A DNA stretch of 64,000 bases from Nitriliruptoraceae bacterium (GTDB lineage: Bacteria; Actinomycetota; Nitriliruptoria; Nitriliruptorales; Nitriliruptoraceae): contig JAGYKW010000002.1 of the NCBI GenBank assembly GCA_018401275.1, positions 62,001-126,000 of the forward strand, read 5' to 3'. The first letter of the stretch is position 1. The number at the start of each line of letters is the position of its first letter. The notes under the pieces are model-generated. The model did not search any database and was not told the origin of the DNA. It saw nothing but the letters and a program-made list of their open reading frames with translations. Both the position numbers and the translations under genes were made by a program. Below are positions 35,561-42,035 of the stretch, one piece after another.

Positions 35561-35705
35561 GCACGTCCGGGCCGTGGGGCCTTCGAGCCGTCCTGTGGGC
35601 CGACCCGTCAGGCCACGTCGGGGCTGATGCTTGATTAGCATCCGCCGGCGGGCTCGGATCGTCGCGGACAGGCGCGGACAGGCTCTGGACAGAAGGAGAG
35701 CGGTG

Positions 35706-36266
35706 ATGGTCTGGAGGGCGCAGTCGCTCGCGGTCCGTCGGTCGCTCCGGCGACGCGCTCCGTTCGTCCGGTTGCTGCTGCCACTCGCGCTCGTCGCAGC
35801 GGCATGCGGCGGTGAGGATGTCCGGGGTGAGGATGGGCGCGTGGTCACCGCCGGATCCTGGAGCGTGTTCGACCTCCGTCCCGGGGACTGCATCGGCGAC
35901 GTCTCCGACCTCAAGGGCGACGCCGACGAGGTCCCGCTCGTGCCCTGCAGCGAACCGCACGCGCAGGAGGTCTTCGCGGTCGTCCGCCATCCCGATGATG
36001 CCTACCCCGGCGCGGGTGCCGTCGCGACGTTCGCCGACCGTGCCTGCCTCACCGCGCTCGAGGCGGACCTCGATCTCACCATCGACGATGGCATCGCCTT
36101 CTCCTATCTCCTCCCGACGTTCGAGGGCTGGAACGAGAACGGCGACCGCAGCGTCGTGTGCGTCCTCGTGTTCCCCGAGGAGGCCGGCATGATCGGCTCC
36201 TTCGTCGACGGCACGGGGGATGCGTCGCGGCTCACCGCGACCGACGTCGAGACGTCGACCCCGTAG
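35706..36266 (+). CDS. Septum-formation-family lipoprotein
   Basis: 186 residues. A basic N-terminus and hydrophobic stretch end in a lipobox (LVAAACGG). The exported domain follows the Septum_form pattern: VFDLRPGDCIGDV, VPLVPCSEPHAQEVFAVV, YPGAGAVATFADRACLTAL and a final VVCVLVF, with four Cys that could form two disulfides. ATG 35706 is seven bases from AAGGAG; GTG 35703 is an alternative. Function in actinobacteria is poorly defined. Confidence 0.8.
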   Translation: MVWRAQSLAVRRSLRRRAPFVRLLLPLALVAAACGGEDVRGEDGRVVTAGSWSVFDLRPGDCIGDVSDLKGDADEVPLVPCSEPHAQEVFAVVRHPDDAYPGAGAVATFADRACLTALEADLDLTIDDGIAFSYLLPTFEGWNENGDRSVVCVLVFPEEAGMIGSFVDGTGDASRLTATDVETSTP

Positions 36267-36784: not shown

Positions 36785-36803
36785 CCCGGCGATCCCCGCC
36801 GGG
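36785..36803 (+). ncRNA. Leader hairpin upstream of the Abi-like gene
   Basis: A perfect 7-bp stem CCCGGCG / CGCCGGG with a five-base loop. Its 5' arm can also pair with GCCGG at 36777-36781, giving two mutually exclusive stems. It directly precedes the larger repeat hairpin at 36807-36856, so the two may form one structured RNA. Confidence 0.45.
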
Positions 36804-36806
36804 ACA

Positions 36807-36856
36807 AGTCAAAACCCCGGCCGTTTGCCGAGGCAGGGACGGTTCCGGGGTCTGCG
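36807..36856 (+). repeat. Structured 50-bp repeat, upstream copy (flanks Abi-like gene)
   Basis: About 90% identical (45 of 50) to the copy at 37613-37662 in the same orientation. It folds as ACCCCGG (36814-36820) with CCGGGGT (36845-36851), then CCGT with ACGG, a TT bulge on the 3' side and a 14-base loop that can close further by TGC/GCA. All stem bases are identical in both copies and four of the five changes lie in the loop. It lies 28 bases before the Abi-like start codon. Confidence 0.75.
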
Positions 36857-36883
36857 AGAGCGACGCTACCAGCGAGGAGCCCG

Positions 36884-37591
36884 ATGTCAAGTGCCCCGGC
36901 CGAGGTTCTCCAACGGCGATTGAGTGCGCAGCGACTCGGCGGCTACGTCGAGGCGACCGCCGGCGATCTCGACGCTGCGATCGAGCTCTACGAGTGGAAC
37001 TGCGCGATGTCCGCCGCCCTCTTCGAGGTACTGGGTGATGTCGAGATCATCGTCCGCAACGCGCTCCACGATGCACTCACGGCGTGGCACGCACGTGGCC
37101 CGTTCGCGGGGGAGTGGTATGACAACGAGCACGGCCTGCTCGCTGCCCGGGAGAAGACCGATGTCACCACCGCGCTCCTGCGATTGAAGAGGTGCCGAAA
37201 GCCGGTCTCGCCGGGGGCCGTGGTCGCAGAGCTCAACTTCGGGTTCTGGCGCTTCCTCCTCACGAAGAAGTACTCGTCGACGCTCTGGCCGGTCATCGGA
37301 AGGGCAGCGTTCCCCGACATCAGTCACCGGCGGCCCCAGCTGCTCTGGGCTCGCATGGCACGCCTGCACGACCTGCGCAACAGGATCGCTCATCATGAGC
37401 CGATCCACTGGCGCGACATCGGCCTTGATCTCACGGATTGCTTGATGGTGATCCGTGCTGTCTGCCCCGTTTCGGAGGCGTGGTCGCGCGACCGTGCTCG
37501 CGTTCTGCAGGTCCTTGCGATGCGTCCCCAATCACCGCGCCCGATGGTCGGAGGTGACTCTTGCACGGGTGGAGGAGGCGTGGCCGGATGA
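36884..37591 (+). CDS. Abi-like (Abi_2/AbiF-type) HEPN protein
   Basis: 235 residues. The opening LSAQRLGGYVEATAGDLDAA and LYEWNCAMSAALFEVLGDVE-IIVRN, and the motif LHDLRNRIAHHEPI with R165-x4-H170, are those of the Abi-like/HEPN RNase group. These proteins cut RNA to stop growth during phage infection. ATG 36884 follows GAGGAG by four bases. The gene is less GC-rich than its neighbours, with AAA, TTG and GTA-type codons, suggesting transfer. It is bracketed by two copies of a structured repeat, and no protein antitoxin is adjacent. It is shorter than typical AbiF. Confidence 0.78.
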   Translation: MSSAPAEVLQRRLSAQRLGGYVEATAGDLDAAIELYEWNCAMSAALFEVLGDVEIIVRNALHDALTAWHARGPFAGEWYDNEHGLLAAREKTDVTTALLRLKRCRKPVSPGAVVAELNFGFWRFLLTKKYSSTLWPVIGRAAFPDISHRRPQLLWARMARLHDLRNRIAHHEPIHWRDIGLDLTDCLMVIRAVCPVSEAWSRDRARVLQVLAMRPQSPRPMVGGDSCTGGGGVAG

Positions 37592-37612
37592 GCAGTTGTG
37601 GGTTGCGCTGAA

Positions 37613-37662
37613 AGTCAGAACCCCGGCCGTCTGCCGGAGCAGGAACGGTTCCGGGGTCTGCG
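37613..37662 (+). repeat. Structured 50-bp repeat, downstream copy
   Basis: Direct repeat of 36807-36856, starting 22 bases after the Abi-like stop. The stem ACCCCGG (37620-37626) / CCGGGGT (37651-37657), inner CCGT/ACGG stem and TT bulge are unchanged. It might end the Abi transcript, or be the second half of a repeat-bounded mobile unit. Confidence 0.75.
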
Positions 37663-37701
37663 CGAGAGACGGGACCACCGTGGTCCGCGCCGTGCGAGTG
37701 C

Positions 37702-39368
37702 TCAGCGCAGCGCGTGCAGGCGTCCGTCGCGCGACCCGACGTAGATGCTGCCGCGCCACACGACCGGGGTCGCCTCGATGCAGCCGGGCATCGCGACCTC
37801 CCAGCGCAGCCGCGGCTCGGCCGGATCCTCCAGCGTGTAGCCGCGCACCGACGGTCGGCCGCACGTGGCGAGCACCAACCACGCGGGACCGCCGGGTTCC
37901 TCGACGACGACAGGGGAGGACCACAGCGGTCCACCGAGGAACTCGTTCGACAGCACGGTGCCATCCTCGAGCGCGACGGTGAGCAGCCGACCGGAGTTCG
38001 TCGGCACGTAGATCACGTCGGCGTACACGGCCGGTGTCGCCCACACGCCGCCGTCCGCGCCCTGGGCGCCCGGGACCTCCGGGATGTCGAGGCGCCACAG
38101 CACCGGGTCGTCGGGCCGCGACGGGTCGAGGCGCATCAGCTGTCCCATCCCCTCGGCCGCGGGCAGGCGACGCTCCTGCTCGACGGCGACGACGAGCATC
38201 CCGTCACGGTCGACGACGATCGACGCGTCGGTGTCGTCGCCGACCCAGTGGTCGAACGTGATGACGGTGCGACCCTCGAGCGCCGCCTGCCGGTCGATGC
38301 CCATGACGCGGCCGCCGGAGTTCGCCCAGTAGACGCGGTCGGCGGTGATGGCCGGGCTCGACTCGATCGACACGTTGGTGTCACCGATGCGAGCGAACAG
38401 CGCGTCGTCGAATCCGGGCACCTCGACGAGCAGCTCGGGGTCGACGGTCACGAGTCCGTCCGGGCCGTACGCACGGTTGAGCCGCCACATGCGGAACCAG
38501 CTGTCCTCACCGCCGGCGTAGAGCACGTCGTCGAGGATCGTCGCGTTCGCGTCCCAGTCGTTGTTCCACACGCCCTGCGGATGACGCCCGAGGCGCCACA
38601 GCTCGGTGGGCTCCCCTCGGTCGAGCGCGACGACGCGCAGGAACCCGTCGCGCGATCCGACGACCGCCAGCGGGAACCCGTCCGGGTCGAGCGACTCGGT
38701 GCCCTTCACCATCGCGCCGGTGACGAACGGTGGGCGGGTGCGCTCGCCCGTCGCGCCGTCGAAGAGGTGGAACGAGCCGTCGTAGCCGCCGACCATCACC
38801 TCGACGTCGCGCAGCCCGTCGCCGCCGCGGTCGAGCAGCACGACCTGGCCGGTCCAGCCGATGCCGCACCACACCTTGCGCGTCGTCGGGATCGCACCTC
38901 GACCGAGCACATCCCCTCGGACGGTGCCGACCAGACGATGGCCGGCTCGCGGGGGACCGGTCCCTCGCCGTAGAACGTGCGGGTCGGGTTCCCGCGGAAC
39001 ACGAGGAACCCGTCGACGGCACCGAAGCGGCTGCCGTGCAGCAGCGAGCCGACCGTCGGCACCATCCACGGAGCGATGGAGCCGTCGGGCGGAGCGTCGG
39101 GCGGAGCGTCGGGCGGGACGGACGCACCTTCCGCGCCGGCCGCCTCGGCCACCTCGGACGCGTCCTCGACCGCCGAAGGGTCAGCGGACGGTCCGGGGGG
39201 TGGGCCCGCGACGCCCGACTCCGCCGGGTCGCCGCTCGATCCGCGGACCGCGTCGACGACGGTGATGGCCCCCAGTCCGACACCGAGGAGGACGACCGTC
39301 AGCACGCTGAGGAGCAGGACGTCGCCCGAGAGGGTCGTGGGTGCGTGCTCGATGCGGAGGCGACGCAC
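37702..39368 (-). CDS. Membrane-anchored PQQ-like beta-propeller, frameshifted
   Basis: About 555 residues if read through one indel. GTG 39368 has AGGAGG four bases upstream and opens with a membrane helix (SVLTVVLLGVGLGAITVV) and an acidic Pro/Ala linker. The propeller begins FRGNPTRTFYGEGPVP and carries repeated WxG-type blades. The frame breaks near 38900-38909, just after SEGMCS; adding one G would join it to GRGAIPTTRKVWCGIGWTG. The mature part is extracellular. No enzyme is evident; it may scaffold or bind a ligand. The downstream end is 40 bases from the second Abi-flanking repeat. Confidence 0.75.
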
Positions 39369-40801: not shown

Positions 40802-42035
40802 TCAGGCGCTGGCGAGCGCCTGCGTGATCAGCGTCGCCGTCGTGCGCAGCATGCCGAGGTAGGTCTCGGCGCCGGAGCCCGGTCCGCCGAGCGCGTCGGT
40901 GTAGAGGCGCACGACCTGCAGCGTGACGTCACCGCGACCGACGGCCTCCGAGGCGAGCTGCTCGGCGAGCACGGTCGAGTCGGTGTTCTCCGCGAAGATC
41001 ACGTCGATGCCCTCGGCGACGACGAGGTCGATGAGGCGAGCGAACGCCTGCGGGTTGGTCGCTGCCATCGTCGAAGCTCCAGGGATGACCGTGCCGATGA
41101 CCTCGAAGTCGTAGGCGACCGCGAGGTACCCGAGTGCGTCATGGTTGGTGATGATGCTGCGCCGCTCGGTCGGGATGGTCGCGAACAGTGTGAGCAGCTC
41201 CTCGTGCACTCCGAGGATCTGCGCGTTGTAGGCCGCCGCGCGTGCCGCCCAGTCGATCTCCGGACGGAGGTCGGTCAGCTCTGCAGCGATCAGCTCGACG
41301 GCGGTCATGGTGCGCATCGGGTCCCACCAGAAGTGCGGGTCCTCGTCACCGTGCTCGTGGTCGTCGTGGTCGTCGTGCCCGTGGTCGTCGTGCTTGTCGT
41401 CGTCGTGGTCGTCGTGCGCGTGGTCGTCGTGCTTGTCGTCGTCGTGGTCGTCGTGGTCGTCGTGCGTCGTGCTTGTCGTCGTCGTGGTCGTCGTGCGCGT
41501 GGTCGTCGTGCTTGTCGTCGTCGTGGTCGTCGTGCGCGTGGTCGTCGTGCTTGTCATCGTCATGGTCGTCGTGGGAGCCGGCACCGAACGGGATCGGGTC
41601 GAGCTTGTCGGCGATGCTGAGGACGCGGACGCCGTCGGCCTCGGCTGCTTCGAGCGTGGAGATCAGTCCTTCCTCGAGGAGCAGTCCGTTCGCGACGACC
41701 AGCTCCGCGTCACGCATGGCTGCCGCGTCCGCGGCCGACGCCTCGTAGCCGTGCGGGTCGACGCCGGGTCCCATGAGCACACGGACGGTCCCGTCGTCAC
41801 CGAGCAGGTTCGCGATCAGGTCACCGAGGATCGACGTGGTCGCGACGACCTCGATCGGGGCGACCACGGCGGCGTCGGGCTGCGGGGCGGTCGGTTCCGA
41901 CGTCTCGGTGGCATCATCGGCGCCACCGCATGCGGCGAGGACGAGTGCGAGAGCACCCGTGAGGGCCGCCAGGCGGAGGCCCCTTCGGTGGGTGCCGGTC
42001 CGGTGGCGGGGGGTGGACTGGGTGGTCGCGGTCAT
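40802..42035 (-). CDS. znuA: Zinc ABC transporter substrate-binding lipoprotein ZnuA-like, frameshifted in its His loop
   Basis: About 410 residues when read through one shift. The N-terminus is a lipoprotein signal (GALALVLAACGG). Cluster A-I SBP landmarks are VVATTSILGDLIANLLG, GPGVDPHGYEAS, DAELVVANGLLLEEG, DPHFWWDP, ITNHDALGYLA and VIFAENTDS. Between them is a long His/Asp/Lys loop (HDDHDDDKHDDHAH repeated), the zinc-scavenging loop of ZnuA. The frame breaks at 41465 inside these repeats. It has its own promoter with a Zur-like operator. ATG 42035 has AGGAG about six bases upstream. Confidence 0.88.
41353..41574 (-). repeat. Slippage-prone tandem repeats encoding the ZnuA His loop
   Basis: Repeated 9- and 12-base words (GACGACCAC, GACGACAAGCAC, GCGCAC) coding HDDHDDDKHDDHAH units. 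At 41465 one unit is interrupted: AAG-CAC-GAC-G is followed directly by CAC-GAC-GAC. Compared with the intact units this equals loss of eight bases (ACCACGCG) between short repeats. Confidence 0.85.

Follow-up and report, generated by a model that had tools for sequence, protein, structure and literature searches.

A 60-nucleotide (nt) hairpin RNA, present in two copies that bracket a gene for an AbiF/PD-T4-5-like predicted HEPN ribonuclease (P0001), was analyzed in a 64,000-nt stretch (the window) of the genome of a Nitriliruptoraceae bacterium (assembly GCA_018401275.1, contig JAGYKW010000002.1, positions 62,001 to 126,000). The hairpin belongs to a real RNA family, uncatalogued and absent from Rfam, whose structure is conserved and which is linked with this type of HEPN gene in many lineages. 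The unit is, with fair confidence, a type III-like toxin-antitoxin or abortive-infection system in which the RNA would act as the antitoxin, a role that fits the linkage to one HEPN family, the conservation of the structure, and the adjacency of RNA and gene. An earlier note, made from the letters of this DNA, had proposed such an RNA partner, and the proposal is now strongly supported by a hairpin that is conserved, covarying, and located beside homologous HEPN genes.

The two 50-nt direct repeats that the note had placed at 36807-36856 and 37613-37662, with 45 of 50 bases identical, were confirmed, the differences lying at 36812, 36825, 36831, 36832, and 36838. The duplicated unit is longer than had been described, covering 72 nt at 85% identity (Table 1). 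The hairpin pattern was matched twice in the window and not once in 100 shuffles of it, and only two copies were found in the whole assembly (1.73 Mb, 39 contigs), the next match having an E-value of 0.17. Regarding the fold predicted earlier for both copies, the 7-base-pair (bp) stem, the UU bulge, and the 4-bp stem held, but the 14-nt loop is not fully open, as 3-4 bp pair inside it. All helices are spared by the five differences between the copies: that at 36825 converts a U-G into a C-G pair inside the former "loop", and the other four are unpaired. Copy 2 carries a G-to-A change in its internal loop, at a G that is 97% conserved across the RNA family. Its helices are intact, which suggests that this copy is still in use or young. 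The further 7-bp hairpin noticed ahead of copy 1 is present in the minimum-energy fold and may belong to the transcript.

The structure is supported by covariation and not by single-sequence folding energy, which was not significant (z of -1.3 to -2.3 for three stretches around the copies and -0.4 for a fourth). The RNA consensus reads AAAG-N-C-N-A-ACCCCGG (helix P1), a P2 of 3-4 bp, and a short P3 opening with a near-invariant U-A pair, followed by a variable tip, CAG-R-G, P2', a 2-nt bulge, and CCGGGGU-CUUCG. Over 71 distinct sequences, 94.7% of cells were paired and 11 of the 14 pairs showed double changes, with 93 double-change cells observed against 27 in shuffles (none of 500 shuffles reached as high) and at most 12 when the partner was slid by 1-3 columns as a control; these alignments were fitted to the model structure, which favors pairing. 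The first alignment, made with MAFFT free of structure, gave 13 double-change cells against 5.

The hairpin was found upstream of 11 of the first 13 homologues, namely all 11 actinobacterial ones (L007-L017), loci that mostly served as training data for the covariance model R1, which was built from 12 hairpin copies. R1 recovered the hairpin 5' of HEPN homologues outside its training set (G275, G155, G296, and G057) and at 12 of 14 actinobacterial plasmid loci examined, the hairpin-bearing plasmid loci coming from Pseudonocardia, Streptomyces, Rhodococcus, Micromonospora, Nocardia, Kocuria, and Gordonia; it was also present 5' of alphaproteobacterial loci, including one on an Agrobacterium plasmid. 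A second model, R2, applied to genomes at E up to 1e-4, detected the hairpin in 44 of 395 sampled Actinomycetes genomes. When 68 copies from these 44 and two further genomes were mapped, 48 lay directly 5' of an HEPN domain encoded in the same direction, at distances of 23-266 nt with a median of 50, including three before partial or broken HEPN genes (L137, L138, and L140), two lay directly 3' of one, one was cut by a contig end, and none adjoined an HEPN domain on the opposite strand. The covariance-model search that the earlier note had called for yielded hairpin matches across actinobacteria, most of them beside Abi-like HEPN genes. The type of RNA also tracked the protein clade, with 8 label changes in the tree against 22.8 in shuffles, a clustering that is inflated by sampling because the labels came partly from loci found through the RNA. 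Weak RNA matches at L169 and L170, which resemble ordinary terminators, were excluded from this evidence.

At three loci (L018, L043, and L046), whose proteins form one clade with 99% support, the asymmetric CAG-N-G signature was located on the strand opposite the HEPN gene, indicating that the RNA there is probably a separate molecule and not a leader. The copies located 3' of the gene, and those that have no gene beside them, likewise point to an RNA able to exist as a molecule of its own. At four of the loci where the RNA lacks an HEPN gene (L144, L145, L146, and L149), it is followed by a recurring small open reading frame (ORF; MVASSARVSFPYSDLLREPKRV... or a relative), which had no Pfam match, and then by a second small ORF, the pair resembling a two-gene toxin-antitoxin pair.

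The R165-x4-H170 motif of P0001, reported earlier, exists, and R165, N166, A169, and H170 are invariant among the aligned homologues. Its identity as an Abi_2/AbiF-like HEPN protein was borne out by Abi_2 as the sole Pfam match and by the AbiF-like fold of its model. The match to Abi_2 (PF07751) reached 22.5 bits, below the gathering cut-off of 25.6, and 23 of 24 aligned family members matched at E up to 0.01; judged by its sequence, P0001 is a relative of Abi_2 and not a formal Pfam match. The top PADLOC match was PD-T4-5 (36.8 bits), followed by AbiD, and one homologue scored 44.8 bits to PD-T4-5. The AlphaFold (AF2) model of P0001 had a predicted local distance difference test score (pLDDT) of 90.5, and its best Foldseek match in the PDB was 8vz6_A, that is, PbAbiF bound to its non-coding RNA (ncRNA), which alone reached a probability of 1.00 among the PDB matches listed, the next having 0.18. 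A sequence search of the PDB with P0001 alone gave no match, and profile searches retrieved 8vz6 at E = 0.4-1.3. Residues 216-235 (window 37529-37588), which stop shortly ahead of RNA copy 2, extend beyond the C-terminus of the homologues and were modeled with low confidence, and may for these reasons be a recent extension.

The earlier note had also linked the element to the structured RNA known upstream of AbiF-type genes. A structured RNA does lie 5' of an AbiF-type HEPN gene here, but it is not a member of the abiF RNA family (RF03085), whose model, searched at E up to 10, matched neither the locus nor the genome and was also without a match in 38 homologous loci, and Rfam searches over the locus, its own genome, and the homologues returned nothing relevant. 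As a positive control, the same search found RF03085 at four of six AbiF loci: L174 (59 and 44 bits), L175, L176, and L178, the last three below the gathering score. Conversely, R2 had no match at the AbiF control loci, and in the protein tree canonical AbiF formed a fully supported group of its own, with every protein tied to the new RNA lying outside it. Given the missing RF03085 match, the silence of R2 at the AbiF controls, and the separate protein clades, the new RNA is a counterpart of abiF RNA, by descent or convergence. It is not described in the limited part of the abiF RNA literature covered, and the primary study of PbAbiF may already contain it.

By analogy with AbiF-AbiFr, RCd22, and PD-T4-5, we infer RNA-protein binding, neutralization, nuclease activity, and phage defense for this unit. 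The AbiF-like HEPN protein would dimerize and cut RNA through R165/H170, an activity that we infer for P0001 from its relatives; the hairpin RNA would be the cognate partner, holding the nuclease inactive by binding to it; and phage infection could disturb the balance between RNA and protein, freeing the nuclease and halting growth. In Clostridioides difficile, the AbiF toxin is directly bound and neutralized by the ncRNA RCd22, in which the structure of the stem weighs more than its sequence, and R202/H207 of the toxin are required (PMC12373285). A review gives the same account for PbAbiF (PMC12737573), and a further paper reports that PD-T4-5 defends by abortive infection and terms it a distant AbiF/D relative (PMC9519451). 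As in type III systems, a structured RNA with covarying helices is encoded beside the candidate toxin gene in 48 of the 68 mapped copies, which would suit an antitoxin. The statement in the earlier note that no protein antitoxin is adjacent also held more widely, as no protein partner recurs and the neighboring genes vary among the annotated plasmid loci.

Several observations weigh against this toxin-antitoxin reading. About a quarter of the mapped copies (17 of 68) had no HEPN match within 400 nt, and RNA of this type was undetected at L042, L086, L101, and in the gammaproteobacterial clade; an opposite-strand match at L039 (17.8 bits) was too weak to be used and is counted here as well. The Foldseek match to PbAbiF was modest (E 0.03, TM-score 0.51). 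On the plus strand of the locus, no sigma-70-like promoter was found by a scan that suits actinobacteria poorly, and no intrinsic terminator, including in the gap between RNA and toxin gene, by a scan that needs a T-run, uncommon in GC-rich genomes.

The gene has a guanine-cytosine (GC) content of 65.5% against a window mean of 72.1% (standard deviation 2.2%), below every other sampled 708-nt window, in agreement with the lower GC content described earlier. Horizontal acquisition of the gene is probable, given this low GC content, its lack in three congeners and in about 30 sampled genomes from its family, and the frequent location of its relatives on plasmids. No empty site could serve for comparison, as the region is not syntenic in the three congeners, and the sole good flank match (G002) has a different gene neighborhood.

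Four other explanations of the hairpins were weighed against an RNA antitoxin. A purely cis-acting 5' leader, with the HEPN protein or another factor binding or cutting the hairpin within the mRNA and so autoregulating synthesis with no free antitoxin, would suit the 48 same-strand copies at a median of 50 nt from the HEPN domain start and the 19 nt between the end of RNA copy 1 and the ATG, and RCd22 is also active in cis (PMC12373285). The divergent strand at L018, L043, and L046, the occurrence of RNA 3' of the gene both in the window and at G296, and the copies with no HEPN gene nearby speak against it, so that it is judged improbable. Even less likely is an RNA that acts as a guide or sensor, activating or directing the HEPN nuclease as a step toward Cas13 instead of simply inhibiting it. 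The bracketing of the gene by repeats would accord with such a role, as would the weak alignment of the HEPN profile with the CRISPR-associated HEPN chains 8y7f/8y6z (E about 0.1-0.3), but no spacer-like variable segment was identified, the sequence outside the hairpin is not array-like, and the nearest characterized relatives have inhibitory RNAs (PMC12373285, PMC12737573).

Very little credence is given to the repeats as ends of a mobile cassette, which the earlier note had also raised, or as an ordinary repetitive extragenic palindromic (REP)-type repeat. Horizontal gain, suggested by the low GC content and the absence from congeners and same-family genomes, would accord with a cassette; the repeats are nevertheless direct and not inverted, with the RNA elements in the same orientation, most homologues have the upstream copy alone, and no empty site was available, the region being non-syntenic in congeners. 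A REP element, for its part, is contradicted by the presence of only two copies in the genome and by the linkage of the RNA to the HEPN gene across genomes. A role for the hairpins as transcription terminators or processing signals, with no tie to what the protein does, is just as hard to credit, since the strong GC stem and the position of copy 2 between convergent genes are offset by the lack of a U-run after the stem on the plus strand, the conservation of the unpaired GRG and the U-A pair, and a linkage specific to one protein clade.

Flanking of the gene by RNA on both sides is rare, most homologues having an upstream copy only. It recurs in another actinobacterium, G296 (RNA-HEPN-RNA-RNA), and related arrangements were found at G516 (RNA-HEPN-RNA-RNA-HEPN and, at another place, RNA-RNA-HEPN) and G727 (two RNA-HEPN units in tandem). 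Moreover, on a Phocaeicola massiliensis plasmid (L174), canonical abiF RNA (RF03085) occurs at 947-983 and 1974-2033, on both sides of AbiF, whose reading frame ends at 1902, and no second AbiF was seen behind the downstream RNA. Duplication of an RNA-HEPN unit with later loss of one gene explains such loci. For copy 2 in the window, no HEPN remnant was found in six frames over 37600-39200, which makes a duplication of the RNA alone equally possible; copy 2 probably arose when the RNA was duplicated, or is what remains of a tandem RNA-HEPN duplication, and it may raise the antitoxin dose. A bolder view, which we consider doubtful, is that the placing of its own RNA to either side of an AbiF-type nuclease serves a function and has evolved more than once (in the window, at G296, and on the Phocaeicola plasmid with canonical abiF RNA), an arrangement in which an RNA at each transcript end would supply two RNAs per dimer, and that RNA-nuclease-RNA(-RNA) loci could model the start of a HEPN-side repeat array toward Cas13.

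Table 1. Features of the RNA-HEPN unit (positions in the window)
Feature	Position	Strand	Basis or remark
AbiF/PD-T4-5-like predicted HEPN ribonuclease gene (P0001), 235 aa, R165-N-R-I-A-H170	36884..37591	+	Homologue alignments, profiles, fold match
Upstream copy of 72-nt duplicated unit (RNA and leader up to ribosome-binding site)	36806..36877	+	Partner 37612-37683
RNA copy 1 (60-nt hairpin)	36805..36864	+	R1 76.6 bits, copy in training set; covariation in sets of 34 and 71 distinct sequences
Copy 1 P1 (7 bp)	36814-36820/36845-36851	+	3' UU bulge 36843-36844
Copy 1 P2	36821-36824/36839-36842	+	
Copy 1 P3	36826-36828/36833-36835	+	
Copy 1 internal loop with conserved GRG	36836-36838	+	
RNA copy 2 (60-nt hairpin)	37611..37670	+	R1 70.9 bits, copy also in training set; 19 nt past stop codon
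7-bp hairpin CCCGGCG-AUCCC-CGCCGGG	36785..36803	+	Minimum-energy fold; directly 5' of RNA copy 1
Probable ribosome-binding site GAGGAG	36874..36879	+	4 nt before ATG; read from the sequence

Elsewhere in the window, a ZnuA-type zinc-binding lipoprotein (40802-42035, minus strand) is split over two frames at a 39-bp tandem repeat coding for His/Asp, with Pfam ZnuA positions 1-98 in one ORF and 97-263 in the other, reflecting either a frameshift by a change in repeat length or an assembly error. In addition, a homologue of window 35799-36248 (ORF 35631-36266) was located in the congener G002 (L104) near an ORF resembling a phage-tail sheath protein.

With this unit, many Abi-like HEPN genes, most of them from actinobacteria, often plasmid-borne, and annotated as hypothetical, would gain a specific RNA partner whose structure can be tested, and RNA partners would extend beyond the classical AbiF clade. 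This would enlarge the known pool of RNA-controlled HEPN nucleases, the presumed source of Cas13; in a published analysis, AbiD/F HEPN domains cluster with ancestral Cas13 HEPN domains (PMC12165695). The units are compact (<900 nt) and suited to experiments that distinguish an inhibiting from a guiding or an activating RNA, and an actinobacterial RNA family missing from Rfam is directly usable in annotation.

Among known systems, AbiF-AbiFr (PbAbiF/ncRNA, PDB 8vz6) and AbiF_Cd-RCd22, both type III-like, share with the new unit the R-x4-H HEPN motif, a structured RNA immediately 5' of the gene, and at times two RNA motifs, and AbiF is the only confident fold match in the PDB. In contrast, the new protein, at 235 aa, is shorter than AbiF (about 300 aa) and belongs to a separate, fully supported clade, and the new RNA differs in sequence and helix layout. 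PD-T4-5, the anti-phage protein that is the best PADLOC match of P0001 and acts by abortive infection, is described as the product of a plasmid-borne gene, with an RNA partner unmentioned in the passages covered (PMC9519451), and the gammaproteobacterial homologues examined showed no match to the new RNA. Type III systems such as ToxIN, in which the RNA antitoxin is a tandem repeat, likewise carry an RNA upstream of a ribonuclease toxin, to which the new unit would be analogous, and some loci of the new family (G516 and L159) resemble ToxIN in their tandem RNA copies. The new unit differs from ToxIN in having one or two RNA copies, of which one can lie 3' of the candidate toxin gene, and no long array, and in having a HEPN protein as the candidate toxin, whereas the toxin of ToxIN has the ToxN fold.
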